Below, one piece after another: positions 28,362-56,366 of a DNA stretch of 64,000 nt. Each line of letters starts with the position of its first letter. Position 1 is the first letter of the stretch. Origin of the DNA: Methanobrevibacter sp. (GTDB taxonomy: Archaea > Methanobacteriota > Methanobacteria > Methanobacteriales > Methanobacteriaceae); the NCBI RefSeq assembly GCF_015062935.1, contig NZ_SUTM01000005.1, positions 1 to 64,000 of the forward strand. Reading direction: 5' to 3'. A program made the translations under genes and the position numbers. Below the pieces are notes generated by a model. That model was not told the origin of the DNA, searched no databases, and worked only from the letters and a program-made list of their open reading frames with translations.

Positions 28362-29792
<1,431 letters not shown>

Positions 29793-34755: not shown

Positions 34756-34884
34756 CTCAGTCTCCTACAATCCGGAAAAGTTCAATAAATTCTTAAAATA
34801 CCCTCAACTCATCAAATCATCATATGATAATAAATAATATGGGATGGTACATAAATTTTATATGTCTCAATGAGTAAAATATAT

Positions 34885-35928
34885 ATGATATTTATGAATG
34901 GTAAATTGATTAAGGTAATTTTTTTATTTTCTGTACTTTTGATTTTAAGCACATCTGCTGTTTTTGCAGAGGATAATTCAACAGATTTGACTTATTCTTC
35001 TGAGAATCATTCCATTTCAGAGGCGGAAAATATCTCAGACGATTTTAATTTTGATATTGGTGAATGGGCATTGGATGAAAACGGAAATGTGGTTCATATC
35101 CCCTCAAATAAAAGTCATGGTGATAATGATTTCAGCGTTGAATTTCATGTAGGTAATGGTACTGACTTGAGAAATAATGCTTCAGGCGCAAATCCGGCTC
35201 AGGATACTTACCCGATTTTAAAGCCTTCAGGATTTGATTCTTGGTGGGAGGAATTTTCTAAAGACCCTAAGGCTTTTATGGATAAATACAATCCGCAGCC
35301 AAAGGCCCCTCCAGCAACATTTGGCGATGATGTTCAAAACGGCACATGTGATGGAAAGAATTCCAAGGAATTCATAGATTTCATCAATTTTGTTAAAAAG
35401 ACCAGAGTAACACCAGATTCAATTATAGGCAAGGATGTTAATGTTTTCTATTCCACCAAAAATGTATATTGGGTTAGGGTTCTCAATCCTGTCGGTGATT
35501 CAGTCGGCAAGGGCATAAAAGTCACATTTATTTTCAACGGCAAGAAAATCATGACTCAAACCAATGAAAACGGTTATGCAAGCTTCAAATTTAAAGCTCA
35601 GTCTGGAAAATATGTCGTAAAGGCGTATGCTGGCAACGTTACCTCCAAGCATAAGGTAACTGTCAAGCCGCTCTTCAAGACAAAGGATGTCTCAAAGAAA
35701 TATAAGAAATCCTCAAAATTCACTGTAAGGCTGGTCAAGCTTAACGGCAAGTCACTTCAAAAGAAAAATATCAAGATAACACTCAAGGGCAAGACCTACA
35801 CTGTAAAGACAAATTCAAAAGGAATTGCAACTTTCAATATTCCGAAAAATCTTAAAGTAGGCAAATATACAATCAAAACCCGCTATAATGGTTGTGTTGT
35901 TAAGAACTGCTTAACAGTCAAAAGATGA
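34885..35928 (+). CDS. Secreted adhesin-like protein with Ig-type C-terminal repeats
   Basis: A 347-residue exported protein. The N-terminal signal peptide has hydrophobic core VIFLFSVLLILSTSAVFA, then a low-complexity acidic region, a WWEEFSKDPKAFMDKY segment, and a C-terminal pair of Ig-like domains ending KYTIKTRYNGCVVKNC. The last domain resembles the Lys-rich modules of the large adhesin-like proteins at 51884-64000. No enzymatic motif is visible. The first ATG is at 34870, but TTTATAT at 34857-34863 places initiation near 34885, so a leaderless start there is preferred. Confidence 0.75.
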   Translation: MIFMNGKLIKVIFLFSVLLILSTSAVFAEDNSTDLTYSSENHSISEAENISDDFNFDIGEWALDENGNVVHIPSNKSHGDNDFSVEFHVGNGTDLRNNASGANPAQDTYPILKPSGFDSWWEEFSKDPKAFMDKYNPQPKAPPATFGDDVQNGTCDGKNSKEFIDFINFVKKTRVTPDSIIGKDVNVFYSTKNVYWVRVLNPVGDSVGKGIKVTFIFNGKKIMTQTNENGYASFKFKAQSGKYVVKAYAGNVTSKHKVTVKPLFKTKDVSKKYKKSSKFTVRLVKLNGKSLQKKNIKITLKGKTYTVKTNSKGIATFNIPKNLKVGKYTIKTRYNGCVVKNCLTVKR

Positions 35929-36273: not shown

Positions 36274-37611
36274 ATGTCAGCAAAAGATAAAAAATTAGAC
36301 CAGATTATAAAGACAATCGATGCAAACGATATAAAATTTTTGAAATTGCAGTTTTCAGATATTCATGGATTGCCAAAAAGCATGGCAGTACCTCTTAAAA
36401 AGGCGGATGATGTTGAAGACATAGTAAATGACGGATTATTGTTTGACGGATCCTCAGTAGCAGGTCTGGCTTCAATCAATGACAGTGACCTTCTTGCAAA
36501 ACCTGATATCAACACATTCTCAACAATTCCATGGAGACCTGAATCAAAAGGTACCAGTCGATTCATATGTGATATTTTCACAACCGAAGGAAAACCATAT
36601 GACGGAGACCCAAGGGGAGTTCTCAAAAAATCCCTGCAATTGGCAGAAAAAAGAGGATACCAATTCAATATGGGTCCCGAACCGGAATTCTTTATCATAA
36701 CCGAAGATGAAAACGGAAATTACATACCTGCCGATGAGGCGGAGTACTTTGACGTGGAACCATTGGACCAGGGTACAGATATCAGAAGGGAAATCGTACT
36801 GGGTCTTGAAAAACTTGACTTTGATGTTGAAGTAAGCCACCACGAAGTTGCAGCAGGCCAGCATGAAGTTGACTTCAAATATGCAGACGCTTTAAAAACA
36901 GCAGATGCAGTAATAACATTCAAGGAAGCTGTCAAAGCACTGGTAAATAATTTGGGCTTCAAGGCAACATTCATGCCAAAACCGTTTTTAGGAATCAACG
37001 GTAGCGGAATGCACTGTAACCAAAGTCTTTTCAAGGACGGGGAAAACATTTTCTATGACCCTGACACCGAAACCCAGATTTCTCAAGAGGCACTGTACTT
37101 CATAGGAGGACTGCTGAAACATGCTCCTGCATTATCATCAATACTCTCTCCAACAGTAAACTCATACAAACGTCTCGTACCGGGCTATGAAGCACCATGC
37201 TACATCGCTTACGGTTTCAAAAACAGATCAACTCTGTTAAGGATTCCTGCATCCCGTGGATTAGGTACAAGAATCGAATGCAGGTCCGCTGACCCTTCAT
37301 GTAATCCATATCTTGCATTTGCAGTACTGCTTGAAGCAGGTCTGGACGGTATGGACAACAAGATTGATCCTGGTGAACCTACCGAAGAAAACCTCTTTGC
37401 ATTTTCAGAAGATGAAATTGCTGAGAAAGGAATTTCCAGTTTGCCTACAAGCTTATGGGAAGCATACCATGCACTTGAGGAAAATGACGTTATCAAAAAC
37501 GCTCTTGGTGAAAAAGTATTCAATCAGTTCTACAACATCAAAAGGGCTGAGTGGGACGCTTACAGAATACAGGTATTCGACTATGAACGTGATGAATACC
37601 TGAATGTCTAA
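36274..37611 (+). CDS. glnA: Glutamine synthetase, type I
   Basis: Makes glutamine from glutamate, ammonium and ATP. It is 445 residues, the short GSI form of archaea and Gram-positives. Segments include [21 protein letters not shown], the metal-binding [25 protein letters not shown], the ATP-site [11 protein letters not shown], and the [14 protein letters not shown] loop. The transcript start lies on a double NrpR-type operator, which implies repression when nitrogen is plentiful. A hairpin follows at 37625-37666, and the split glutamate synthase genes follow, completing the GS-GOGAT route. Confidence 0.97.
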
Positions 37612-37875: not shown

Positions 37876-38793
37876 ATGTGCGGAATAGCAGGTGTAATAT
37901 ACAAGGACAAAAAAACTCACCCTGTAGGAAGCGCTTTGACATCCATGCTGGAATCTCTGCAGCATAGGGGTCCAGATTCAGCAGGATATGCAATCTATGG
38001 GGGTTTGAATTTTTCTGAAAATTATTATCAGTTAAACATTCAAGTAAACAGAAGAAAAGGAACATTGGACAATTTAAAATCATTACTGACCCAGTTCAGT
38101 CAGATATACGAAGAACAGCTAATCGAATCAGTAGGCGATTCAGACGTATACAAATGTAAAATAGCACTGGAGGAATATTCTCTTTTAAAACCGTGCATAC
38201 GTGAAATAGACGAACTGGAAAACGTAAGGGTAATCAACGGATCACATTCATTTGAAATGATAAAGGACATCGGAAAGGTAAAAGACATAGCAGAGCGGTT
38301 TGACGTTCCAAGCAGGATGGGAACCCATGGGATCGGACATACCCGATTTGCAACCGAAAGCGGAGTGGACAGGTATCATGCACACCCATATCAAAGCTAC
38401 ATCATACCTGACATTACTGTGGTGCATAACGGACAGATTACCAACTACTGGAAAATCAGGGACCCTCTGGAGAGGAAAGGACACACTTTCGAATCATTCA
38501 ACGATACTGAATGCATAGTTCACTACATGGCAGATAAGCTCAATCAGGGCTACAAACTGGAAGAGGCTTTGGAGGAAGCAGTCACTGATTTGGACGGTCC
38601 GTTTTCAATACTTGTGGGAACACCTAACGGTATTGGAATTGCAAAGGACAAGCTTGGACTGAGGCCGGGAGTCATGGCTGAAACAGATGAGATATTCGCC
38701 ATAGCATCAGAGGAAATGGCATTGCATGACGTCATTGATTCAGACCAGATAGAACAGATCGCTCCCGGTGAAACAAGGGCTTACACAATTTAG
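37876..38793 (+). CDS. Glutamate synthase, glutamine amidotransferase subunit
   Basis: A 305-residue stand-alone class II glutaminase domain of glutamate synthase, releasing ammonia from glutamine. It begins MCGIAGVIY, where Cys2 becomes the catalytic N-terminal nucleophile. SLQHRGPDSAGY, GIGHTRFATES, HAHPYQSY, VVHNGQITNY and FNDTECIVHYM are typical. GGAGG precedes the ATG at 37876; upstream in-frame codons are not used. In archaea the GltB domains are commonly split into separate genes, and here the next three genes carry the rest. Confidence 0.93.
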   Translation: MCGIAGVIYKDKKTHPVGSALTSMLESLQHRGPDSAGYAIYGGLNFSENYYQLNIQVNRRKGTLDNLKSLLTQFSQIYEEQLIESVGDSDVYKCKIALEEYSLLKPCIREIDELENVRVINGSHSFEMIKDIGKVKDIAERFDVPSRMGTHGIGHTRFATESGVDRYHAHPYQSYIIPDITVVHNGQITNYWKIRDPLERKGHTFESFNDTECIVHYMADKLNQGYKLEEALEEAVTDLDGPFSILVGTPNGIGIAKDKLGLRPGVMAETDEIFAIASEEMALHDVIDSDQIEQIAPGETRAYTI

Positions 38794-38807
38794 CGGGAGT
38801 GTTTTCA

Positions 38808-39461
38808 ATGAAAGAATATGTTATTGACGCAAAGGATATGGATACAAAGGAACTGAACCGTACCATAAAGGAACGCGCTCCTCTTTATGATAAGCTCGTT
38901 ATTGAAAACCCGGAATCCAAACACAACATCTGCGCAGGTCTGAGCGAAGACATTGACATTCAGATAAACGGCTCTGCAGGTTATTTTGTCGGAACAATGG
39001 TCAACGGGGCAAAAATACACATCACAGGAAATGCCGGATGGTTTGCCGGAGACAACATGACAAAAGGTGAGCTGATTATCGAAGGAACTGCAGGTGACGG
39101 TGCAGGACAGGGAATATACGGCGGAACCGTAATTGTCAAAGGAAGCACAGGTTCAAGAACCGGAGAAATCATGAAAGGCGGAACAGTAATAATCGGCGGA
39201 AACAGCGGATATATGACCGGACTTCTTATGATGGGAGGAAAACTCATAATTCTTGGTGACGTGACCGATGATGTGGGCGAATCAATCATGAGAGGAACCA
39301 TATATGTTCTCGGCAATGTCAAAAGCCTGGGAAAGAATGCCTTAATGGAAAAAACCAGTCTCAAAGATCAAAATGAGCTTAAAGAAATCCTGACCAGATA
39401 CGGTTTCGATTTGACAGACATTGAATATACAAACTTTAAAAAAATTGTTAATATACAATAG
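38808..39461 (+). CDS. Glutamate synthase, GXGXG-domain subunit
   Basis: A 217-residue right-handed beta-helix subunit equal to the C-terminal GXGXG domain of bacterial GltB. Repeats with Gly-x-Gly character run from about residue 45 to 170 (GSAGYFVGTMVNGAKI, GNAGWFAGDNM, GTAGDGAGQGIYGG, GSTGSRTGEIMKGG). The domain links the glutaminase and synthase sites structurally. GGGAG precedes the ATG at 38808. It lies 14 bases after the amidotransferase gene. Confidence 0.92.
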   Translation: MKEYVIDAKDMDTKELNRTIKERAPLYDKLVIENPESKHNICAGLSEDIDIQINGSAGYFVGTMVNGAKIHITGNAGWFAGDNMTKGELIIEGTAGDGAGQGIYGGTVIVKGSTGSRTGEIMKGGTVIIGGNSGYMTGLLMMGGKLIILGDVTDDVGESIMRGTIYVLGNVKSLGKNALMEKTSLKDQNELKEILTRYGFDLTDIEYTNFKKIVNIQ

Positions 39462-39472
39462 GAGCTAAGAAA

Positions 39473-40546
39473 ATGAGCAAACATAAAATAGCAATGGTTG
39501 GAACACCATGTGAAATTATGGCAGCGTCCAAACTGCAATATTACACTGACAGCCCTATTGATGTTAAACTGGGCTTGCTCTGTATGGAGAACTTTTCATA
39601 CAAATACTTCGTAAATCTCCTTAAGGAATATGACTTGAAAATGGATGACATTGAAAAATTTCAGATAGAAAAAGGATTCGTATTCCTGTATTTGAAAACC
39701 AGGGAAACTGTAAAGATACCGATATCAGTTGCCAAACGTATAATCCGAAAAAACTGCAGCATATGTGTTGAGCTGACCTCTGAAACATCAGACATTTCAA
39801 TAGGTTCCATAGGTTCCGAGGACGGCTGGTCAACAGTGATAATCAGAACCAGAAAAGGTGAGGAAATAATCAACGGGGCAATTGAGAGAGAATTCATCAA
39901 AGCCAAGGACATAACAGAACCGCAATTCAATCTTCTCATGAAACTTGCAGGAAATAAAATTTCCAAAAATCTTGAAAACATCGAGAGAAGGGAATTTCTG
40001 GCCCGCCCCGTATTGTATCAGAGGGAAAAGTCAGACGATTCAATAAACAGGGACATCCTGGAGTCCAGCTTCTTAGATTTGAAATCCAATGTCATTGACG
40101 TTGGGGCCTGTGTGCTTTGCGGAGCATGCGAATACGCATGTCCTGATGATTTGATAACAATTGACGACACAAAACCGATAATGAAAGGAAAATGTCCTGA
40201 AAATTGCCATTTATGCTTCAGGGTCTGTCCAAGAACATTCATTCATCATGATTTGCGCAATGACAATTCAAAGCCAATCGGCGAGTTCATAAATGTGCTG
40301 TCAGTCAAATCCCTTAAACATACTCAGGGTCAGGACGGATCTATTGTCACCACACTGATTGATTATCTCCTGTCAAACAAGATTGTAACCGAAGCGCTCA
40401 TTGTCGACAAGAAGGACCATCTTGCATGGAAACCATATGCGAAGATAACAAGCGCCATAGATGAGGTTGTTAAAGCGGGCGGAACAAAATATTCAGTCTG
40501 TCCAGTATTCAAGCCATTGAAAAATATTGAAGAGGAGGTAAATTAA
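39473..40546 (+). CDS. Circularly permuted FrhB/FdhB-type F420-binding iron-sulfur protein
   Basis: A 357-residue subunit made of the parts of coenzyme F420 hydrogenase/dehydrogenase beta proteins in unusual order. Residues 5-140 match the FrhB C-terminal domain (KIAMVGTPCEIM, GLLCMENFSY, IGSIGSEDGWSTVIIRT). Residues 210-255 are a two-cluster ferredoxin (CVLCGACEYACP, CHLCFRVCP). Residues 285-350 match the FrhB N-terminal domain (GQDGSIVTTLIDYLL, AGGTKYSVCPV). In ordinary FrhB the last part comes first. Lying between glutamate synthase subunits, it probably feeds electrons from F420H2 to the synthase. The role is inferred from domains and position. Confidence 0.82.
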   Translation: MSKHKIAMVGTPCEIMAASKLQYYTDSPIDVKLGLLCMENFSYKYFVNLLKEYDLKMDDIEKFQIEKGFVFLYLKTRETVKIPISVAKRIIRKNCSICVELTSETSDISIGSIGSEDGWSTVIIRTRKGEEIINGAIEREFIKAKDITEPQFNLLMKLAGNKISKNLENIERREFLARPVLYQREKSDDSINRDILESSFLDLKSNVIDVGACVLCGACEYACPDDLITIDDTKPIMKGKCPENCHLCFRVCPRTFIHHDLRNDNSKPIGEFINVLSVKSLKHTQGQDGSIVTTLIDYLLSNKIVTEALIVDKKDHLAWKPYAKITSAIDEVVKAGGTKYSVCPVFKPLKNIEEEVN

Positions 40547-42028
40547 ATGTCATTTACTGTTGAGCGTAAAATTGAAATTTGCAAACAGAATAACAATAGG
40601 CCCGGCTGCTGCTGGTATTTATGTGACAATCCCAATCAGTCCGCATGTAAAAACTGTTATAGCTGTTATTCAAACTGTCCTCATGACGTTTATGAAGTAA
40701 TCAATGACGAACCTCTTCCGATACGTCAGGAAAATTGTGTGGGATGCAAAATATGTGAAGAGATGTGTCCGACACATGCGATATATGTAAGACCTCTTGC
40801 AGATGAAGGAAGAGGTGTGTGGTCAAATTCAACAATGGTTGAAATCAAACGTAAAAGCCAGACCGGTTCATATAAGGTGAGAGGTTGCGGTCTGACCCGT
40901 AAAATCCCGACATTCGATGACTTAAGCATATTGCCGGCTCAGGTGTCAAGACCTCCAATCGATTCATACAGGGAACCCTGCAAGACTTCAGTTGTTCTCG
41001 GTGACAGGTTTGCCGAAAATCCGATTGAAATCGACACTCCAATAATGATTGGTGCAATGTCATTCGGTGCACTGAGCAAGGAGGCAAAGATGGCACTTGC
41101 TATCGGAAGCAGTAAAGTGGGATCAATTGCCAACACCGGTGAAGGAGGAATGCTTCCGGAAGAAAGACATTTCGCCGATAAGCTGATAGCCCAGTATGCA
41201 TCAGGCCGATTCGGAGTATCTGCAAGCTATCTAAACAATGCTGAAGCTGTTGAAATCAAAATAGGTCAGGGTGCAAAATCAGGTATGGGAGGACATTTGC
41301 TAGCCCATAAGGTAACAGCAGAAGTGGCAAGGGTTAGAAACATTCCGGAAGGAACCTCTGCGTTAAGTCCTGCAAGGCACATGGACATAGTCGGGCCTGA
41401 AGATTTGGGAATGAAAATCGACCAGTTGAGGGAAATTACAGACTGGAAAGTGCCTATTATCGTTAAATTTGCAGCGGGAAGAGTCGAGCAGGATGTTAAA
41501 ATCGCAGCAAAAGCCGGTGCGGACATTATTGTAGTTGACGGTATGCAGGGAGGAACCGGTGCAGGACCTGAAGTGGTTACCGAGCACGCAGGTATTCCGA
41601 CAATCGAAGCTATCGTAAAGGCCGATGACGCTTTAAAGGACATTAACTTAAGAAGTGAAGTCAGTCTTGTGGCCGCCGGAGGTATAAGGTCAGGTGCTGA
41701 TGTTGCAAAGGCAATCGCACTGGGCGCAGATGCAGTATATATTGCAACTTCTGCGTTGATTTCCATAGGATGCAAGGTCTGTCAAAGCTGTTCTGAGGGA
41801 ATATGTCCGAAAGGAATTGCAACACAGGACAGGATGCTTAGAAGAAGACTTGACCCTATAAGAAAAGGCCAGCAGGTTGCAAATTACATTGAAGCAATGA
41901 CTCAGGAAGTAACTTCCCTGACTCAGCAGGCAGGAAACACTGACATTGAAAACCTTGAACGTCAGGACCTTGTGGCATTGACTGTAGAGGCTTCACAGTT
42001 AACAGGCGTGCCTATGGTGAGAGGTTAA
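40547..42028 (+). CDS. Glutamate synthase, FMN/iron-sulfur synthase subunit
   Basis: A 493-residue catalytic subunit that makes glutamate from 2-oxoglutarate and ammonia. The N-terminus carries a ferredoxin-like pair of clusters (CKNCYSCYSNCP, CVGCKICEEMCP). The TIM barrel follows with MIGAMSFGALSKEAK, NTGEGGM, and IIVVDGMQGGTGAGPE. CKVCQSCSEGICPKGIATQD gives the 3Fe-4S-type Cys motif of GltB. It starts immediately after the stop of the F420-type gene, with GAGGAGG upstream. The bacterial NADPH subunit GltD is absent from the cluster. Confidence 0.93.
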   Translation: MSFTVERKIEICKQNNNRPGCCWYLCDNPNQSACKNCYSCYSNCPHDVYEVINDEPLPIRQENCVGCKICEEMCPTHAIYVRPLADEGRGVWSNSTMVEIKRKSQTGSYKVRGCGLTRKIPTFDDLSILPAQVSRPPIDSYREPCKTSVVLGDRFAENPIEIDTPIMIGAMSFGALSKEAKMALAIGSSKVGSIANTGEGGMLPEERHFADKLIAQYASGRFGVSASYLNNAEAVEIKIGQGAKSGMGGHLLAHKVTAEVARVRNIPEGTSALSPARHMDIVGPEDLGMKIDQLREITDWKVPIIVKFAAGRVEQDVKIAAKAGADIIVVDGMQGGTGAGPEVVTEHAGIPTIEAIVKADDALKDINLRSEVSLVAAGGIRSGADVAKAIALGADAVYIATSALISIGCKVCQSCSEGICPKGIATQDRMLRRRLDPIRKGQQVANYIEAMTQEVTSLTQQAGNTDIENLERQDLVALTVEASQLTGVPMVRG

Positions 42029-42063
42029 TATTTGAAATTAATTAATTATTAGGAGATATTGTT

Positions 42064-44709
42064 ATGGCAGCATTCGACAGAATCAAATCAGGAATTCCGG
42101 GACTTGACAAGGCTCTGGACAACATTCGTTTAGGTGACAACGTAGTATGGAATGTCACCAATCTCAATGAATTTTCCTACTTTGCCGATCCTTACATAAG
42201 ACAGGCAAAAGAAGACAAGAGAAACTTGATATATATGCGCTTTGCTAATCACCCTCCATTGATAGAGATGAGCGATGAAGACTTTGATTTGCTTGCAGCA
42301 GAACAGGAAAATCCTGAAAGCGAATTTTGTATGATTGAACGTGACGGAATCAAGATATATCAGGTCAATCCATATAATCAGTTTGAAACCTTTACTCTGG
42401 AGGTTCACAGGATTATAGAAAAGGAAGGCTATGATGCGTTTTATGTATTTGACTGTTTAAGCGACCTTCAGGCGGTATGGTCAACCGATTTGATGATGGG
42501 CAATTTCTTCAAGGTGACATGCCCATTTCTCTTCCAGCTTGATACCGTTGCATTTTTCCCAATAATCAGGGGAAGACATTCCTATGATGCCATAGCAAAA
42601 ATCCGTGAAACCACACAGCTGTTTTTGAATGTATATTCAAATTCCGCTGATGAAGTCTATGTTTCCCCGCTGAAGGTCTGGAACAGATACTCCCAGACAA
42701 TGTTTCTGGGCCATAAGTTCAACCCTCAGACAGGTTCCGTCAAGGTTCTCCAGGACGGACATGAGGTAAGCAGATATTACAAGACTGTTAATGACACGGA
42801 TAAATATCAGAACGGACAGATTTTGGACAGCTGGGAGCGATACATGCTCCAGGTCAGAATGAAACATGATGAAGGGGAAAACGTAGATGAAGAGTGTGAC
42901 AAGATATGCGAGCTCATGATGACCAAGGATGAGAAGATGCTTTCCAAAATCAAGGAATATTTCGCCTTTGAGGATTACACCACAATTTACGACCGCCGTG
43001 TAGGAAGCGGACTGGTCGGGGGTAAATCCTGCGGAATGCTGCTTGCAAGAAAAATTATTGAAAAAAACTGCCCTGAACTGTACAATAACGTTTTCGAACC
43101 TGACGATTCATTCTACATTGGTTCGGATCTGTTTTATACATATATTGTTTCAAATGACCTTTGGGATTTAAGGGTAAAGCAGAGAACCGAAGAGGGATAT
43201 TATGAATACGGCAAAAAGCTGGAGGAAGGCCTTAAAAACGGTGTATTTTCAGAGGAAATCAAAAAAGAATTCATACATATTCTGGATTATTTTGGACAAA
43301 ACCCTATCATTGTCCGTTCAAGCAGTTTTCTTGAGGACGGATACGGTAATGCGTTTGCAGGCAAATACGAATCAGTGTTCTGTGTAAACAGGGGTTCTCT
43401 GGAAGAGCGTTTAGCCGCCTTTGAGGATGCTGTAAAGGTGGTCTATGCAAGTACAATGAACATTTCCGCATTGGAATACAGGAAACTGAATGGCCTGGAT
43501 GATGCAGATGAGCAGATGGCACTTCTGGTTCAGAGGGTTTCAGGTTCATATTGCGGCAATTACCTGTTCCCAACCGCTGCAGGTGTCGGATTTTCATACA
43601 GTCCATATTCTCCTCTTCCGGATATGGACAACAGCAAGGGAATGCTGAGACTTGTGATGGGTCTTGGAACAAAGGCTGTGGACAGAACCAAAAAGGATTA
43701 TCCGAGAATTGTCAATCTTGACAAGCCTGAACTGACAATGATGAAGGACATGAAGGAAAAGCACAGGTATTCCCAGCATTATCTTGATGTCATCGATTTG
43801 GAAAACAGGAGTCTGCATGACATCCGCATTGATGACGGGCTGGACGTCCTTCCGAGATATGCAAAAAAGGTTCTCATAGAACATGACCGTGAAGCCGAAA
43901 GCATGTTTCGTGAACGTGGACAGCGCCGTGAAATAGTCTTTGTCAACTGTGAAGGACTTGTTAAAAATCAGCAGTTCATTGAAGTGATGAAGGAAATATT
44001 GAATACTCTGCAAACAGCTTATGACTATCCTGTTGACATAGAATACACAATTAATGTCGGCGAGGACAATTCATTCAACATAAACCTGCTTCAGTGCCGC
44101 CCTCTTCAGGTTTCAACAAACAATGAAGCTATTGAAATGCCTGAAGATAAGAATGTATTCTTCCACATCAGGGATTCCTCCATGGGAATGTCTAGAAAGA
44201 ATACCGTTGATGTAATATGCTATGTTGACCCTCACAGGTATTACGAATATCCTTACGCTCAAAAAAGTTCAATATCACGTGTAATAAATAATGTGAATGC
44301 TTATTGTAGGGATAATGACAAGACTGCCGTTCTGATAGTTCCCGGAAGGATAGGTACGTCCTCTCCTGAATTGGGAATTCCTGTTGTATTTGCAGATATC
44401 AGTCATTTTTCCGCAATTCTGGAAGAATCATACAGTGAAGTCGGCTATATGCCTGAGTTGTCTTTCGGAAGCCATATGTTCCAGGATCTGGTTGAAGCGG
44501 AAATATACTACGGAGCATTATTTGAAAACGAGAAAAAAATAGAATTCAACAGGCAGATGGTACATGATTATCCTAATATATTAAACAAAATCAATCCAGA
44601 GTTGGATGATGAAGTGTATGATATGGTTCAGGTGATAGATTTCAACGGAGGCTGTGCCGAATTCTATCATGACATGAACAGGGACGAAACAATGTGTATT
44701 TTCAAGTGA
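42064..44709 (+). CDS. PEP-synthase-like ATP-grasp protein with a degenerate KaiC/RecA-like N-terminus
   Basis: An 881-residue protein of unknown function. The start RIKSGIPGLDKALDNIRLGD has the layout of KaiC-like RecA domains, but the Walker A loop is missing (GDNVVWNVTNLNE stands where GxxGxGKT should be), so this part probably does not hydrolyse ATP. From about residue 310 it matches the ATP-grasp domain of pyruvate phosphate dikinase / PEP synthase (GLVGGKSCGMLLARK, IIVRSSSFLEDGYGNAFAGKYESVF, and NINLLQCRPLQ). The phosphohistidine and PEP-binding domains are not visible, so it is not a complete PEP synthase. It follows the glutamate synthase genes by 35 bases and is likely co-transcribed. 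Confidence 0.8.
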   Translation: MAAFDRIKSGIPGLDKALDNIRLGDNVVWNVTNLNEFSYFADPYIRQAKEDKRNLIYMRFANHPPLIEMSDEDFDLLAAEQENPESEFCMIERDGIKIYQVNPYNQFETFTLEVHRIIEKEGYDAFYVFDCLSDLQAVWSTDLMMGNFFKVTCPFLFQLDTVAFFPIIRGRHSYDAIAKIRETTQLFLNVYSNSADEVYVSPLKVWNRYSQTMFLGHKFNPQTGSVKVLQDGHEVSRYYKTVNDTDKYQNGQILDSWERYMLQVRMKHDEGENVDEECDKICELMMTKDEKMLSKIKEYFAFEDYTTIYDRRVGSGLVGGKSCGMLLARKIIEKNCPELYNNVFEPDDSFYIGSDLFYTYIVSNDLWDLRVKQRTEEGYYEYGKKLEEGLKNGVFSEEIKKEFIHILDYFGQNPIIVRSSSFLEDGYGNAFAGKYESVFCVNRGSLEERLAAFEDAVKVVYASTMNISALEYRKLNGLDDADEQMALLVQRVSGSYCGNYLFPTAAGVGFSYSPYSPLPDMDNSKGMLRLVMGLGTKAVDRTKKDYPRIVNLDKPELTMMKDMKEKHRYSQHYLDVIDLENRSLHDIRIDDGLDVLPRYAKKVLIEHDREAESMFRERGQRREIVFVNCEGLVKNQQFIEVMKEILNTLQTAYDYPVDIEYTINVGEDNSFNINLLQCRPLQVSTNNEAIEMPEDKNVFFHIRDSSMGMSRKNTVDVICYVDPHRYYEYPYAQKSSISRVINNVNAYCRDNDKTAVLIVPGRIGTSSPELGIPVVFADISHFSAILEESYSEVGYMPELSFGSHMFQDLVEAEIYYGALFENEKKIEFNRQMVHDYPNILNKINPELDDEVYDMVQVIDFNGGCAEFYHDMNRDETMCIFK

Positions 44710-50049: not shown

Positions 50050-51207
50050 TTGGATGTGATTCATGTGTTTTCTGAATATAATACTGTTAATAAAGGTATT
50101 GTGGTTAAATTGTATCCTGATGAAAGTATGAGGGATAAAATTAATCAGAATATTGGTAATGCCAGGTTTACTTGGAATAAATTATTACAGGAATATCAGG
50201 AAACATTTGAATTGTTTAAAAAACAAGGATACACAAAGTTACAATGCAACATAAAAACATTCAATACAATGTTGAATATGCTGAAAACACAATATTCATT
50301 CTTGTATGAAAGTGAGTCAAGCAGTTTGCAGCAGGTTTTCCGTGACCTATTACAGGCATTTAAAAGATTCTTCAACAATACATCCAGTTATCCTAGATTC
50401 AAATCCAAAAAGAATCCAAAACATAGCTTCAGAATACAAAACAACAATAATATCAAAATACAGGACAATATAATTGTTTTACCAAAATTGGGACAAGTAC
50501 ATTACAGAACCAGCAACCATTATAAAAAACTACTAAAAGAATCTAAAATCAACAATGTAACAATTAAAAAGGAGCACGGTCACTTTTATGCAGTTTTCAA
50601 CATCGAAACAAATGTAGAGACAATGGATTATACTTATAATATTGTGGGAATTGATCTTGGTATGAGAACATTAGCAACCCTCAGCAACGGACTAAAGATA
50701 GCCAATTTAGACACACGCCATGAGGAGAAAATGATTAAAAAATACCAAAAAATCCTATCACGAAAAAAATACAACAGCAACCGCTACAACAAAACACTAA
50801 AAACACTAGGAAAATGGATAAAAAGAAAAAACAACCGCATAAAAGACGCATACCACAAATTAAGCCACTACCTAGTCAAAAAATACGACCTAATCTGTAT
50901 GGAAACACTAGACATACGCGAAATGTTCGAACAAACCGATTATAGCAAAAAACTACAAAATATCAGCTGGTACAAACTATTGGAAATGATCAAATACAAA
51001 TGCCAATGGTACAATAAAATATTCATCCAAATAAGCCAATGGCACCCATCCAGCAAAAACTGTAACGTATGCGGATACTACAACAAAGATCTAGGCGACG
51101 AAAAAAAATGGACATGCCCACACTGCAAAACACAACACGACAGAGACATAAACGCAGCAAAAAACATCAAACAAGAAGGATTCAGACTTCTTAAAGAAAA
51201 AAAATAA
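50050..51207 (+). CDS. tnpB: IS605-family TnpB RNA-guided nuclease
   Basis: A 385-residue TnpB. All three RuvC catalytic residues are present: Asp202 in GIDLGMRT, Glu285 in CMETLDI and Asp366 in HDRDINAAKNI. The zinc-finger pair CNVCG...CPHC lies between the last two. The N-terminus (KGIVVKLYPDESM) has the usual helix-turn-helix and OB start. The protein looks complete, so the nuclease may be active. It starts with TTG (GTGs at 50056 and 50065 are alternatives), with no clear ribosome binding site. There is no tnpA beside it, as in many archaeal IS605/IS1341 elements. Confidence 0.93.
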   Translation: MDVIHVFSEYNTVNKGIVVKLYPDESMRDKINQNIGNARFTWNKLLQEYQETFELFKKQGYTKLQCNIKTFNTMLNMLKTQYSFLYESESSSLQQVFRDLLQAFKRFFNNTSSYPRFKSKKNPKHSFRIQNNNNIKIQDNIIVLPKLGQVHYRTSNHYKKLLKESKINNVTIKKEHGHFYAVFNIETNVETMDYTYNIVGIDLGMRTLATLSNGLKIANLDTRHEEKMIKKYQKILSRKKYNSNRYNKTLKTLGKWIKRKNNRIKDAYHKLSHYLVKKYDLICMETLDIREMFEQTDYSKKLQNISWYKLLEMIKYKCQWYNKIFIQISQWHPSSKNCNVCGYYNKDLGDEKKWTCPHCKTQHDRDINAAKNIKQEGFRLLKEKK

Positions 51208-51869: not shown

Positions 51870-51889
51870 GTGAATTCAATCACTTATTT
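51864..51889. terminator. Bidirectional terminator between convergent genes
   Basis: AAATAAGTGA (51864-51873) and TCACTTATTT (51880-51889) form a perfect ten-pair stem with a six-base loop. The arms include the stop codons of both facing genes, and T runs follow on both strands. Confidence 0.8.
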
Positions 51890-54800
51890 TTTTACTTTAA
51901 CTGTTTTTTTGACAGTGTCTTTAAGGTATGTTGCCTGGTAGGTAACTTTTTTACCTACTTTGAGCTTTTTAAGGACACTTGATTTTATTGTAACCTTTGC
52001 AACACCTTTTTTGCTGGTTTTTGCAGTATATTTCTTGCCGTTGAACTTGAAAGTTATCTTTTTGGATTTAAGATATTTTCCGTTGACTTTGGCAAGTGTT
52101 GCAGTTAAAACCAGTTTTTTGCCTGATTTTTTAACGGTTGCACTTTTAAGTGTTACCACGTGTTTTACGGTGAGCTTTTTGGTTGCTGAAACTCCAAGGG
52201 CGGTTGCCATGACATTGTATGTTTTTGGAATTTGTGTTACCTTAAAACTGGCAATACCTTTTTCATTGGTTGTTGTTGTTTTTACTGTTTTTCCGTTTAC
52301 CTTAAATACAACTGCAACTCCGTTTGCAAGTTTGCCGTCGGTTCCGTATACTGTCACTGAATAGTATTTTCCTGCGGAATACTGAACTGTTGAGGCTTTG
52401 GCAATTATTTTGGCATCAACAATAACTGTTGTGTTTGTTGTTTTAACCATTGGGGAGTATTTGTCATCTCCTGAATATGAAATGGTAACGTCATAGTTTC
52501 CTGCAGGCAGATTATCTGCAGTAACTGATGCTTTTCCGTTAATGACTTCTGCAGTGTATGTATTGTTTGCGATTGTCACTGTCAGTGTACCTGTTGCATC
52601 TTCAGGCAGGTTGATTGAGTAAGTCGGTGTTTTGGAACTTGTAGCATTCTTTACAGGAATGATGTCTTCACTTACGTCCTTTTCGGCTTCCCTCACTTTG
52701 AACGCCACACTCTGTGTGCCTGCTGAAACCTTGTCGTTTCCTTCATATTTTGCAGTTATTGTGTGCTCACCTGCTTTCAGGTTATGAACAGTTACGCTTG
52801 CGGCACCGTCCCTGATTTCAGCAGTGTAGTTGGCATTTCCTATTTCAACGGCAATGTTTCCGGTGGCATCCTTGTTTATTGTGAATGTTACTGTTGCGGT
52901 TTCTCCTTCATTGATGTCTCTGGCATTGACAGTAAGGTTTGCTGCGACTTTTTGTACGGTCTTTTCACCGAGTTTAACAGATCTTTTGCTGATTGATGTG
53001 TATTTGTCGTTTCCTGTGTATGAAAATGTCACGTTGTCATCTGAGTTCAAATCAGCTCCTGTGATTGTTGCTTTTCCGTTTTTCAGTGTTGCCTGATAGA
53101 ATTTATCGTTAGCTTTTACGATAACATCTCCTGTTGCATCTTCATTCAGCTCCACAATCATGTTGTCATCGGATTTGGAAATTAGAATGTCGCTTTCAGG
53201 TTTTGTAACGGTTATTATGTATATTTCATCATATGATGCTGCGGAGTATGATCCGTAGAGTTCATCGCCTGTGTATTCTGCAGCGCAATAGTAATTTCCG
53301 ATAGGAAGGCCGGATAGGGATATTTTACCCACTCCATTTTTAACGCTTGTATTCATGTTAAATACATTTAAATTACCGTTGGCATCACTTGGAAGGGTTA
53401 TGGTGAAGTATTCATCACTTCCAACAGTCATTGTTTGTGGAAATGTGAATATCGGACTTGCATATAAACTTAATGCATTCAATTTCACATTGTATTTGCC
53501 GTCATCATATTTGATGTAATAGAATGTGTGGGCTAATTGGAATTTTTCCAGTGTGACTGTTGCTTTTCCGTTGCTCAGCTGATATTCTCCGTCAGTGATT
53601 TCATAGTCTTCATCGCTTGTTTCGTTATATATTGTGTGGTAAATGTATAGTTTGCCCTTTGCATCGTCCGGAAGTTCAACTGTAAATGATACTGAATTTC
53701 CAATGTTTACAAATTCGTATAGCATTTTAAGTGTTCCGTTGAGCAAAGGCATTATTTCGACCCGTTCATAAATTCCATTGAAATAGTCGTATTCCTCATT
53801 TTCGATATCGCTGATTTCGGCATTTATGCTGTGCTCTCCAAATCCGAGGTTATTAATTACGGCTGAAGCCTTTCCGTTGATGATGTTCACTGTTTTAAGT
53901 TCAACTCTCTCATTGCCGTTTTCATCATAAATGTAGAGTTTTGCGTTGAGGTCCTGAGGAGCGTTCACGGTGAATGTGATTTCCTCGCCATATGCCATAT
54001 ATTCCCTAATGTTGGTTGAAATGACCTCTCTGTTATTTTCGTCAGGATTTACAAAAAAGGTTCCCATATTCTCGCTCAGTTCAGGATATTTGTCGCCGTC
54101 ATATTTTACCTGAACTTCATATTCTCCGAGACTTAAGTTGGAAACTGTCAATTCGGCTTTTCCGTTGGTGAGCGGAACTTTGTAGTCCTTATCGACAGTA
54201 ACAATCAGGTTTCCGGTTACTTCAAGAGGCACTTCAAATGTAAATGTTATGCTGTCGCTGGCATACATGTAGTTCGCTTCCTGATAATAGTAATGGCCAT
54301 ATTGTGCTTTGACAGGGGATTTTTCGGACTTTTCAACATTTGAATTCTTATATATTATTTCCACTTCATGAGGTCCGTAAGTCATATTTTCTGCAAATAT
54401 GTTGATGTTTTCATCTACAATGCCCATGTCAACAATTTCGCCATCAACGATTAAAGTATAATATCCGTTTTCATAGATTGTCTCTATTCGTCCAAATTCA
54501 TTGGAACTGGTGTAATTTTCATAAGTTCCAATATCTGTTATTTCATCTATGTGGATAATTACATCAACAACGTCGAATGTGGTGGTTGCAGATGTTGGCT
54601 TGAAATAGTCATTACCAGTATAATCTATTTTAAGTGTGTGCTGGCCGAAATCAAGTGAAGATCCGTTCAATGATTCATGCATATCTGCGAGTTGGGTTTC
54701 GAAAAGTTTTCCGTCAATGAATATTTTTAAATTGCCTGAAATTTCATCCGGAAGGCCATATATTTCATAATAGAAATATTCCTCTCCTTTAAGGATGTCT

Positions 54801-56185
54801 GATACTGTTACGTTCATTTTGAGTTCCGGTCTGATGTCTGAAACTTTTGTAGTAATCCAGTCATAATAGGTGTAGTCATCGCTTTCAAAGCTTAAGTCAA
54901 TGCCCAGATTTTTAAAGACTCCCCAATCTGATTCTGCACTTTCAAGATTGAAAATTTCAATGCTTCCTTTTCCGTTTTTTACACTTACGCTTTTCTCTTC
55001 TCCGCCAATGTTTAATGTCAATGTTCCTTCATATGCGCTTGGCAGTGTGATTGTAAGGTAGTTTTTGTCCTTTGAATATATGTAGGATGCAAGGTCTACA
55101 TTTGGATGTACATTAATGTATGGGCTGTAGTTATATTCATCCTCAAATTCTCCCATGGTGACTGTGTAGTCGCTTCCGGTGTAGTTTGCATAAATTGCAT
55201 GGTTTCCCAAATCCAGACCGGAAATATCAACGCTTGCAAAGCCGTCCTTTACAGGAGAGCTTCCAATCAGTTCATATGATTCGATTGTGTTGTCCTCGTT
55301 ATTTATAGTTACTTCATAAACGTTGAGGCTGCCTTTGGCATCACTTGGCAGAGTCAGATATGCGTTGGTTTTTCCATCGAAATCAATTGATGTGCCATTG
55401 AGCATTATCTTAGGGTACATGTCAATGTCAATTTCTTTTGAATCGGTGGGATAGTCGCTTCCTGTGTAGGTGAATATCAATTCGTTTTCACCTATTTTCA
55501 ATGCGGTGTATGGTATTAGGAGGGAATAGCCTAACTCATCATTGTTTTTTTCTATTTCATCTTTGGTTATTGTGTATTTTTTTCCGTTGATTGTGTAGGA
55601 AACGTCTCCTTCAGCCGCATGTAATCTTATGTAAATTGGCAGATTCTCTCCGTATGTTAGTGATTCTTCAATTTCATCAGCGGGTAATGCTTTAAAGCCC
55701 CAGTTCACAACAACGTCGTAAGTTTCATTAAATCCTTCGAATTTATCGTCGTCATGGTATGAAACTTTAACTGTGTATGTTTTGTAGGTCAAATCAAGTC
55801 CCAGGTCATCTGCAGTCAGGCTGGCATACGGTTTTTTGTCTATATTGGCGGAATATGCTTTTTCACTGTCCACGTAAACATCAAGAATTCCGCCGTTTCC
55901 ATGTTCCCAGAAGTCCCAGGATATGAATTCGTCATATTTATGTTCCTTGATGTTGTATTCCTCCGGAACCTGGATGCTATAGTCCAGATAGCTGTCGTCT
56001 TCATAGTTATCGTCATCTTCGCCGTCTGATATGATATCGTCTGCAAAGATATTGTCATCTTCGAGAGGTAGTGCAATGGAGTCCTGTGTTTCATTAAAGT
56101 TCAGGTCATCCGCCGCACTAACTGCACTTATTGTCAGTATTGCAAGCAACATCAGCGTTGCCGCCAGTATTTTTCTATACTTCAT
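51884..56185 (-). CDS. Large secreted adhesin-like protein with Ig-type repeats
   Basis: A 1433-residue surface protein. The signal peptide MKYRKILAATLMLLAILTISAVSA is followed by an acidic stretch. About a dozen Ig-like repeats of 80-100 residues follow, each with a conserved core like YSGDDKYSPM or YTGNDYFKPT. The C-terminal module (about the last 145 residues) is Lys-rich and nearly the same in the neighbouring adhesin genes, ending KDTVKKTVKVKK. It is probably bound to the pseudomurein wall by this basic tail. Function in attachment is inferred from the class. The frame is open further up to 56359, but the signal peptide and GTGAT fix the start at 56185. Confidence 0.88.
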   Translation of the reverse strand: MKYRKILAATLMLLAILTISAVSAADDLNFNETQDSIALPLEDDNIFADDIISDGEDDDNYEDDSYLDYSIQVPEEYNIKEHKYDEFISWDFWEHGNGGILDVYVDSEKAYSANIDKKPYASLTADDLGLDLTYKTYTVKVSYHDDDKFEGFNETYDVVVNWGFKALPADEIEESLTYGENLPIYIRLHAAEGDVSYTINGKKYTITKDEIEKNNDELGYSLLIPYTALKIGENELIFTYTGSDYPTDSKEIDIDMYPKIMLNGTSIDFDGKTNAYLTLPSDAKGSLNVYEVTINNEDNTIESYELIGSSPVKDGFASVDISGLDLGNHAIYANYTGSDYTVTMGEFEDEYNYSPYINVHPNVDLASYIYSKDKNYLTITLPSAYEGTLTLNIGGEEKSVSVKNGKGSIEIFNLESAESDWGVFKNLGIDLSFESDDYTYYDWITTKVSDIRPELKMNVTVSDILKGEEYFYYEIYGLPDEISGNLKIFIDGKLFETQLADMHESLNGSSLDFGQHTLKIDYTGNDYFKPTSATTTFDVVDVIIHIDEITDIGTYENYTSSNEFGRIETIYENGYYTLIVDGEIVDMGIVDENINIFAENMTYGPHEVEIIYKNSNVEKSEKSPVKAQYGHYYYQEANYMYASDSITFTFEVPLEVTGNLIVTVDKDYKVPLTNGKAELTVSNLSLGEYEVQVKYDGDKYPELSENMGTFFVNPDENNREVISTNIREYMAYGEEITFTVNAPQDLNAKLYIYDENGNERVELKTVNIINGKASAVINNLGFGEHSINAEISDIENEEYDYFNGIYERVEIMPLLNGTLKMLYEFVNIGNSVSFTVELPDDAKGKLYIYHTIYNETSDEDYEITDGEYQLSNGKATVTLEKFQLAHTFYYIKYDDGKYNVKLNALSLYASPIFTFPQTMTVGSDEYFTITLPSDANGNLNVFNMNTSVKNGVGKISLSGLPIGNYYCAAEYTGDELYGSYSAASYDEIYIITVTKPESDILISKSDDNMIVELNEDATGDVIVKANDKFYQATLKNGKATITGADLNSDDNVTFSYTGNDKYTSISKRSVKLGEKTVQKVAANLTVNARDINEGETATVTFTINKDATGNIAVEIGNANYTAEIRDGAASVTVHNLKAGEHTITAKYEGNDKVSAGTQSVAFKVREAEKDVSEDIIPVKNATSSKTPTYSINLPEDATGTLTVTIANNTYTAEVINGKASVTADNLPAGNYDVTISYSGDDKYSPMVKTTNTTVIVDAKIIAKASTVQYSAGKYYSVTVYGTDGKLANGVAVVFKVNGKTVKTTTTNEKGIASFKVTQIPKTYNVMATALGVSATKKLTVKHVVTLKSATVKKSGKKLVLTATLAKVNGKYLKSKKITFKFNGKKYTAKTSKKGVAKVTIKSSVLKKLKVGKKVTYQATYLKDTVKKTVKVKK

Positions 56186-56341
56186 AATATCACATATATT
56201 AATCGAAATAATATTCAAATTGAATACAAGTTGAATATAATTAATATTTATTTTAAATGAAGTATATATAGATTTGTAAAATTTCTGAACTTTAATTAGC
56301 CTTTTAAAAAAAATTAGAATATTAATTAAAAAAATAATAAA

Positions 56342-56366
56342 AAAGTGAAAGTTATTCACTTATTTT
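56342..56366 (-). terminator. Terminator overlapping an adhesin stop codon
   Basis: AAGTGAA (56343-56349) and TTCACTT (56355-56361) pair, with a T-rich run beyond on the minus strand. The stop codon of the 56360-57730 gene is inside the stem. Confidence 0.7.

Follow-up and report, generated by a model that had tools for sequence, protein, structure and literature searches.

Rifampin phosphotransferase, the prodigiosin ligases PigC/RedH, and alpha-glucan water dikinase all keep a His domain of the pyruvate phosphate dikinase (PPDK) kind. As for the pathway with which the present locus is associated, to our knowledge ammonium assimilation in archaea and Bacteroidota is under controls for which PII and the classical uridylyl- and adenylyltransferases account only in part. 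In Bacteroides, a trans-acting gene needed for glutamate dehydrogenase (GDH) activity is indicated by the title of a 1996 paper (Baggio and Morrison, 1996, in the reference list of PMC4539542), and a passage of the citing article reports inhibition of the NAD(P)H-dependent GDH when organic nitrogen is high (PMC4539542). Here, we describe a Methanobrevibacter gene, found in a 64,000-nucleotide stretch of DNA (the window), that encodes a PPDK-like ATP-grasp protein, together with the family to which it belongs. Our literature search found no paper on this family, which combines an ATP-grasp domain with an invariant C-terminal His (His804).

Gene and domain composition

The reading frame of the 881-residue protein opens with ATG and begins 35 bases after the glutamate synthase (GOGAT) genes, as the earlier note had stated; gltB2, stop codon included, runs to 42028 (Table 1). 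Judged by comparison with its relatives, the frame is a real gene, since copies with 94-83% identity occur in about 55 species and selection is strongly purifying (dN of about 0.03 and dS of about 0.9 against the nearest relative). In a few relatives, the assembled sequence carries a frame broken by stop codons or frame breaks (L023 of genome G051, L054, and contig C40 of G031). The FrhB-like subunit of the operon suggests an F420-dependent glutamate synthase, and other Methanobacteriaceae have GOGAT without FrhB (L103, L104). The glutamate dehydrogenase gene located 12 kb upstream of the ATP-grasp gene is 62% identical to an Asgard gdh that adjoins the family; gdh also occurs within about 6-12 kb of the ATP-grasp gene in G058, G023, G084, G045, and G038. 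The window further encodes a TnpB/OrfB-like transposon protein (50050-51207) and large adhesin-like repeat proteins (34870-35928 on the plus strand, 51884-56359 on the minus strand).

Table 1. Features of the ATP-grasp gene and its surroundings, in window coordinates
Feature	Position	Strand	Basis
Glutamate dehydrogenase, of the kind adjoining the family in other phyla	28398..29765	+	PF00208 E=1.9e-92
glnA, glutamine synthetase	36274..37611	+	ORF; synteny kept in relatives; resembles glutamine synthetases that Pfam confirmed at Asgard loci
gltB1, glutamine amidotransferase subunit; start placed at MCGIAG	37876..38793	+	Pfam GATase_6 E=1.7e-16
gltB3, GXGXG subunit	38799..39461	+	Pfam GXGXG E=9e-33
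FrhB-like F420-binding subunit, GOGAT operon	39473..40546	+	Pfam FrhB_FdhB_C E=4.5e-43
gltB2, glutamate synthase domain with ferredoxin motifs	40547..42028	+	Pfam Glu_synthase E=3e-131
Ribosome-binding site AGGAGAT of the 881-aa ORF	42051..42057	+	Sequence
PPDK-like ATP-grasp protein, 881 aa	42064..44709	+	ORF; Pfam PPDK_N E=4.8e-46; single copy in genome
Probable KaiC/RecA-like domain without Walker A, residues ~1-235	42064..42768	+	hhalign; fold search of low-confidence model; homology to Asgard N-termini
PPDK_N ATP-grasp domain, residues 317-693	43012..44142	+	Pfam E=4.8e-46
Conserved C-terminal domain, residues 694-881, no Pfam family	44143..44706	+	Alignment A4, 19 invariant columns; 110-sequence alignment
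Codon of invariant His804 in SxGxHxF	44473..44475	+	100% conserved in 110 proteins

The PPDK-type ATP-grasp domain recognized in the earlier note was confirmed by Pfam (Table 1). Lys321, Arg418, Glu424, Asp425, Glu660, Gln677, and Arg679 are invariant among the members compared, which come from archaea and Bacteroidota; by position, we take these to be equivalent to the PPDK residues that bind nucleotide and carry out catalysis, and the ATP chemistry of the domain is thus probably intact. The protein ends 188 residues past this domain. Neither the PEP-utilizers (His) domain PF00391 nor the PEP/pyruvate barrel was detected in it by Pfam, even at E=1, and the phosphohistidine motif GG.T.HA is absent from its sequence. 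Among the NCBIfam PEP synthase models, none came near its cut-off (at best 54 bits against 883; 47 bits against 739.75 for TIGR01418); the best-scoring named models, those of PigC/RedH and PEP synthases, were all far below theirs. Identification of the protein as the PEP synthase of the cell was rejected, since a complete PEP synthase is encoded on another contig of the same genome. The database naming of the family can be corrected: its members are not PEP synthases, and the designation 'PEP/pyruvate-binding' is misleading because it derives solely from the ATP-grasp model.

These findings bear directly on one of the functions put forward in the earlier note, namely a PEP or pyruvate sensor that couples carbon to nitrogen status. 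Such a role would suit a PPDK-type ATP-grasp protein encoded in an operon with GOGAT; however, the barrel that binds PEP or pyruvate is absent throughout the protein, and the PPDK ATP-grasp domain itself binds nucleotide, not PEP. PEP or pyruvate sensing is thus unsupported, and we consider it highly improbable.

The region that follows the ATP-grasp domain occupies the position of the swivelling His domain of PPDK. Pfam gave no match above noise to residues 694-881; nevertheless, Gly708, Gly761, Arg762, Gly771, Pro773, Glu787, Ser800, Gly802, His804, Phe806, and Tyr816 are 100% conserved in 110 aligned proteins, and the family motifs PGRxG, LGxPV, and SxGxHxF are all present in the window protein. 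On the strength of this alignment, the region is a previously undescribed domain with an invariant His. The earlier note was therefore correct that the canonical phosphohistidine and PEP domains are missing, but it overlooked the conserved domain standing in their place. Descent from a degenerate swivel domain was also considered. One alignment placed ELGIP over ELGIP, but profile comparison matched only LGIP, over 7-9 residues, and for this reason no such homology is claimed.

At the other end of the protein, the earlier note had described a RecA/KaiC-like fold devoid of Walker A. The P-loop is indeed absent, both from the window protein and from all of the KaiC-kind relatives examined, Asgard included, whereas the fold can only be called probable. 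The N-terminus is homologous to the Asgard N-termini (E=1e-53 to 1e-70) and bears SGIPGLDKALDNIRLGDNVVWNVTN where KaiC-like proteins of related archaea bear IGISGLDDTIGGFPMGRSVLITGEPGCGKT. With hhalign, residues 4-58 aligned in register with KaiC 1-55 (P=3.3e-4, probability 38%), as against P values of 0.06 or worse for non-KaiC profiles. Pfam yielded no match in the N-terminus and no response-regulator receiver domain in the window protein. Searches of PDB profiles with the N- and C-terminal alignments returned noise, in which the KaiC-like ATPase UPF0273/PH0284 appeared, in register, at E=0.21. A full-length structure model, built from 30 close sequences, was unusable (pLDDT 43). The model of residues 1-242 is of low confidence (pLDDT 51), but a PDB fold search with it retrieved KaiC CI, KaiC, and RecA/RAD51 folds (RAD51 paralogues) among the first matches, the best KaiC match having E=2e-3 and a probability of 0.97. 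The N-terminus is thus probably a KaiC-like domain that lacks the P-loop (a 'dead KaiC'), a reading for which the statistics are weak.

With so many canonical elements missing, the protein might be envisaged as an ATP/ADP-responsive scaffold or pseudoenzyme that binds adenine nucleotide and ligands and controls GDH or GOGAT allosterically by contact, without phosphoryl transfer. Loss of the P-loop in all KaiC-kind members, together with the absence of the canonical phosphohistidine and PEP domains, is in keeping with this explanation; complete retention of the catalytic Lys, Arg, Glu, Gln, and Arg in bacteria and archaea, along with an invariant His, instead suggests chemistry. We regard the scaffold as unlikely.

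Spread and architectures of the family

Within the Methanobacteriaceae, the family is present in 84 of 139 genomes, distributed over 6 of the 17 genera. A profile of the C-terminal domain also detected it in 70 of 227 genomes of a second archaeal phylum, which is very probably Promethearchaeota (Asgard) because Ras-like GTPases occur in all 24 of the genomes sampled (up to 45 each) as against 1 of 14 controls. Another archaeal phylum contributed 5 of 115 genomes, and members in Bacteroidota, gut bacteria among them, were recovered by tblastn; no relatives of the protein were found on viral contigs. Certain records filed under other headings, namely PLSDB entries NZ_OY725790 and OY726056 and the 'Bacteriophage sp.' entries MT835667 and MT835811 (L063, L064, L107, L108), look like pieces of Bacteroidota chromosomes: they carry ruvC, rapZ, gdhA, and SusD-like genes and look unlike plasmids or phages.

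A tree of the core (ATP-grasp plus C-terminal domain) contains three deep groups that match three architectures. The first has the KaiC-like front; the second, found in Bacteroidota and Asgard, has two receivers in front; and the third has no front domain. All 50 receiver-type proteins retain the Asp/Glu-Asp, phospho-Asp, Ser, and Lys of the second receiver, which is therefore presumably phosphorylatable. The front-less form has a PAS-like gene directly upstream at all three loci examined, the PAS match being weak in one. On one contig of the other archaeal phylum, two copies of the front-less form lie close together (L214, G178).

Association with genes of ammonium assimilation

In the clade that includes the window protein, gltB2 lies immediately upstream of the family gene in 53 genomes. 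This arrangement is not a general rule. In G063, which belongs to the same clade, the gene sits directly behind glnA, with GOGAT elsewhere. In another genus, the gene follows GOGAT in G116 and glnA in G124, both of which fall outside the window clade in the protein tree. In a methanogen clade whose proteins are 67-71% identical, most genomes have the gene away from GOGAT; its neighbours there, named by eye from sequence, are pyrE, a MoaB-like gene, xseAB, thermosome, and a cobalamin gene, and offer no functional clue. An association with GOGAT alone was consequently rejected as a rule for the family; such exclusive linkage characterizes a single methanogen clade (53 genomes), together with one independent case in another genus. 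The linkage that the earlier note had expected of homologues thus holds in the 53-genome clade and G116 but not in most genomes of the 67-71% clade, which by the note's own standard counts in part against its GOGAT proposal.

Indeed, the link to nitrogen assimilation that the note proposed proved to be broader than GOGAT: all three architectures adjoin glutamate-making genes (gdh, glnA, or GOGAT), and do so in four lineages. Full-length Asgard genes lie directly beside gdh in 36 of 65 cases (8 of 14 of the KaiC kind and 28 of 51 of the receiver kind), in four orientations: divergent (about 125-380 bp apart), convergent (about 20-55 bp), and tandem on either side. For another three KaiC-kind genes of Asgard, glnA or GOGAT is found within a distance of 2-3 genes; in about 45% of the Asgard copies, no gene of this type is directly adjacent. 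Pfam confirmed GDH, glutamine synthetase, and glutamate synthase at representative loci. In Parabacteroides and Phocaeicola, the family gene is divergent from gdhA and a second gdh lies a few kb off; no such gdh arrangement was found in Prevotella or on one faecal contig. A genome of the other archaeal phylum has the gene order Glu_synthase-GXGXG-FrhB-PAS-core (G177; L213 1-4646). By chance, adjacency to genes of the gdh/glnA/GOGAT type would be expected in less than about 1% of cases, on our estimate of about 10 such genes among about 3,500.

Gene content shows a related pattern. Among Asgard genomes, gdh is present in 64 of 70 with the core versus 48 of 157 without it (Fisher p=1e-18, relatedness ignored), and among nearly complete Methanobacteriaceae genomes in 45 of 47 versus 23 of 31 (Fisher p=0.012, relatedness likewise ignored). 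Conversely, gdh or GOGAT occurs without the family in G066 and in 48 Asgard genomes. In G066, the same glnA-GOGAT cluster, with a gltB2 that is 94% identical, lacks the PPDK-like gene at that place, where not even a remnant of it is found (L093).

Co-transfer of a gene block between lineages could bring the same genes together in the absence of any common function. The gdh genes are alike across phyla (55-62%), and the distribution of the family among Methanobacteriaceae is scattered (6 of 17 genera), as such an account would have it. A transferred block, however, fits poorly with four orientations relative to gdh, different partners (gdh, glnA, GOGAT), three unlike front ends, and at least 13 gains or losses of the link to these neighbours across the core tree. 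Co-transfer without a shared function is thus very unlikely.

The neighbourhoods also bear on whether the protein might be a metabolic enzyme rather than a regulator, such as a ligase or phosphotransferase akin to PigC or rifampin phosphotransferase that uses or feeds the glutamate, glutamine, or 2-oxoglutarate pathway. Intact ATP-grasp residues would be expected of such an enzyme, the invariant His, Arg, and Glu of the C-terminal domain could form a substrate site, and PigC/RedH and PEP synthases head the named NCBIfam models, albeit far below cut-off. Against this, a receiver or a dead KaiC at the front is what one expects of signalling proteins and not of biosynthetic ones, and the neighbourhoods surveyed contained no conserved companion enzyme beyond gdh, glnA, and GOGAT. 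A metabolic role is thus conceivable, and we hold it to be rather unlikely.

Proposed function and comparison with known systems

We infer, with a probability of roughly one half, that the members of the family regulate ammonium assimilation in a sensor-controlled, ATP-dependent way (or act in it as modifying enzymes), with GDH as the commonest partner. The invariant ATP-grasp residues, the fully conserved C-terminal residues, the second receiver kept intact in 50 of 50 proteins, and the recurrent adjacency to gdh, glnA, or GOGAT argue for a regulator; the unrelated neighbours in most genomes of the 67-71% clade, the Asgard copies without adjacency (about 45%), and the occurrence of gdh or GOGAT without the family argue against it. 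Because the partner differs between lineages, a single direct target for the whole family is unsupported.

In the mechanism that we envisage, the front end would read nitrogen or energy status or would dock on a partner. The dead KaiC-like domain of the window protein may dock in this way or bind a ligand, while the receiver front end of the Bacteroidota and Asgard members would make the ATP-grasp the output of a phosphorelay. At the expense of ATP, the ATP-grasp domain would then modify or activate a glutamate-forming enzyme (GDH most frequently, and GS-GOGAT in the window operon), probably acting through His804 or through a ligand that the C-terminal domain holds. The action itself may be a transfer of the phosphoryl group through His804, a modification of another kind, or an activation by contact that ATP drives; that the window protein phosphorylates another substrate, as the earlier note had suggested, is possible.

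A bolder and decidedly tentative version holds that a sensor-gated, PPDK-like ATP-grasp charges His804 and passes the phosphoryl group to GDH or GS-GOGAT, or otherwise activates them, and that the family would be an undescribed class of nitrogen regulator of archaea (including Asgard) and Bacteroidota, identical with the trans-acting GDH factor of B. thetaiotaomicron from 1996. A segment of about 3 kb is reportedly needed in trans in E. coli, and the Bacteroidota family genes measure 2.96 kb. At the two Bacteroidota loci with this linkage, the gene diverges from one gdh while the second lies a few kb away, an arrangement that does not correspond in a simple way to the 'downstream' of the 1996 report, and the identification is a lead only. 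Nevertheless, the family makes the old observation that Bacteroides GDH activity needs a second gene directly testable. It offers a concrete candidate controller of ammonium assimilation in which an engine that uses ATP is combined with exchangeable sensors and a partner pathway that is conserved; if this reading is true, it would represent a new way of controlling nitrogen assimilation.

Comparison with described systems places these features in context. With PEP synthase and PPDK (PF01326, PF00391, and the PEP-utilizing barrel), the window protein has in common an ATP-grasp domain in which Lys, Arg, Glu, Gln, and Arg are conserved, but it has neither the canonical swivelling His domain nor the barrel, and its N- and C-terminal domains differ. 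The ATP-grasp is likewise common to rifampin phosphotransferase, the PigC/RedH prodigiosin ligases, and alpha-glucan water dikinase, although the window protein scores far below the family cut-offs of these other PPDK_N enzymes where models exist. Relative to the KaiC/RadA-like RecA ATPases (PF06745), the N-terminal signature (S/T)GIPxLDxxLxGxxPGDNVV is in register with the KaiC sequence GIxGLDxxLxGGxPxG, and the fold search with the low-confidence N-terminal model retrieves KaiC first; unlike in those ATPases, Walker A is absent from every member examined, and the N-terminus has no Pfam match. Also comparable are the Bacteroidota 'PEP/pyruvate-binding domain-containing proteins' of about 985 residues (e.g., WP_041525632.1), encoded beside gdhA, which have the same ATP-grasp and C-terminal domains with the invariant His; their N-terminus consists of a pair of receiver-like domains, of which the second has kept its phosphorylation site intact, whereas that of the window protein is probably KaiC-like. 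The novelty lies in a new combination around a known ATP-grasp, namely an undescribed C-terminal domain together with a recurrent partner pathway.
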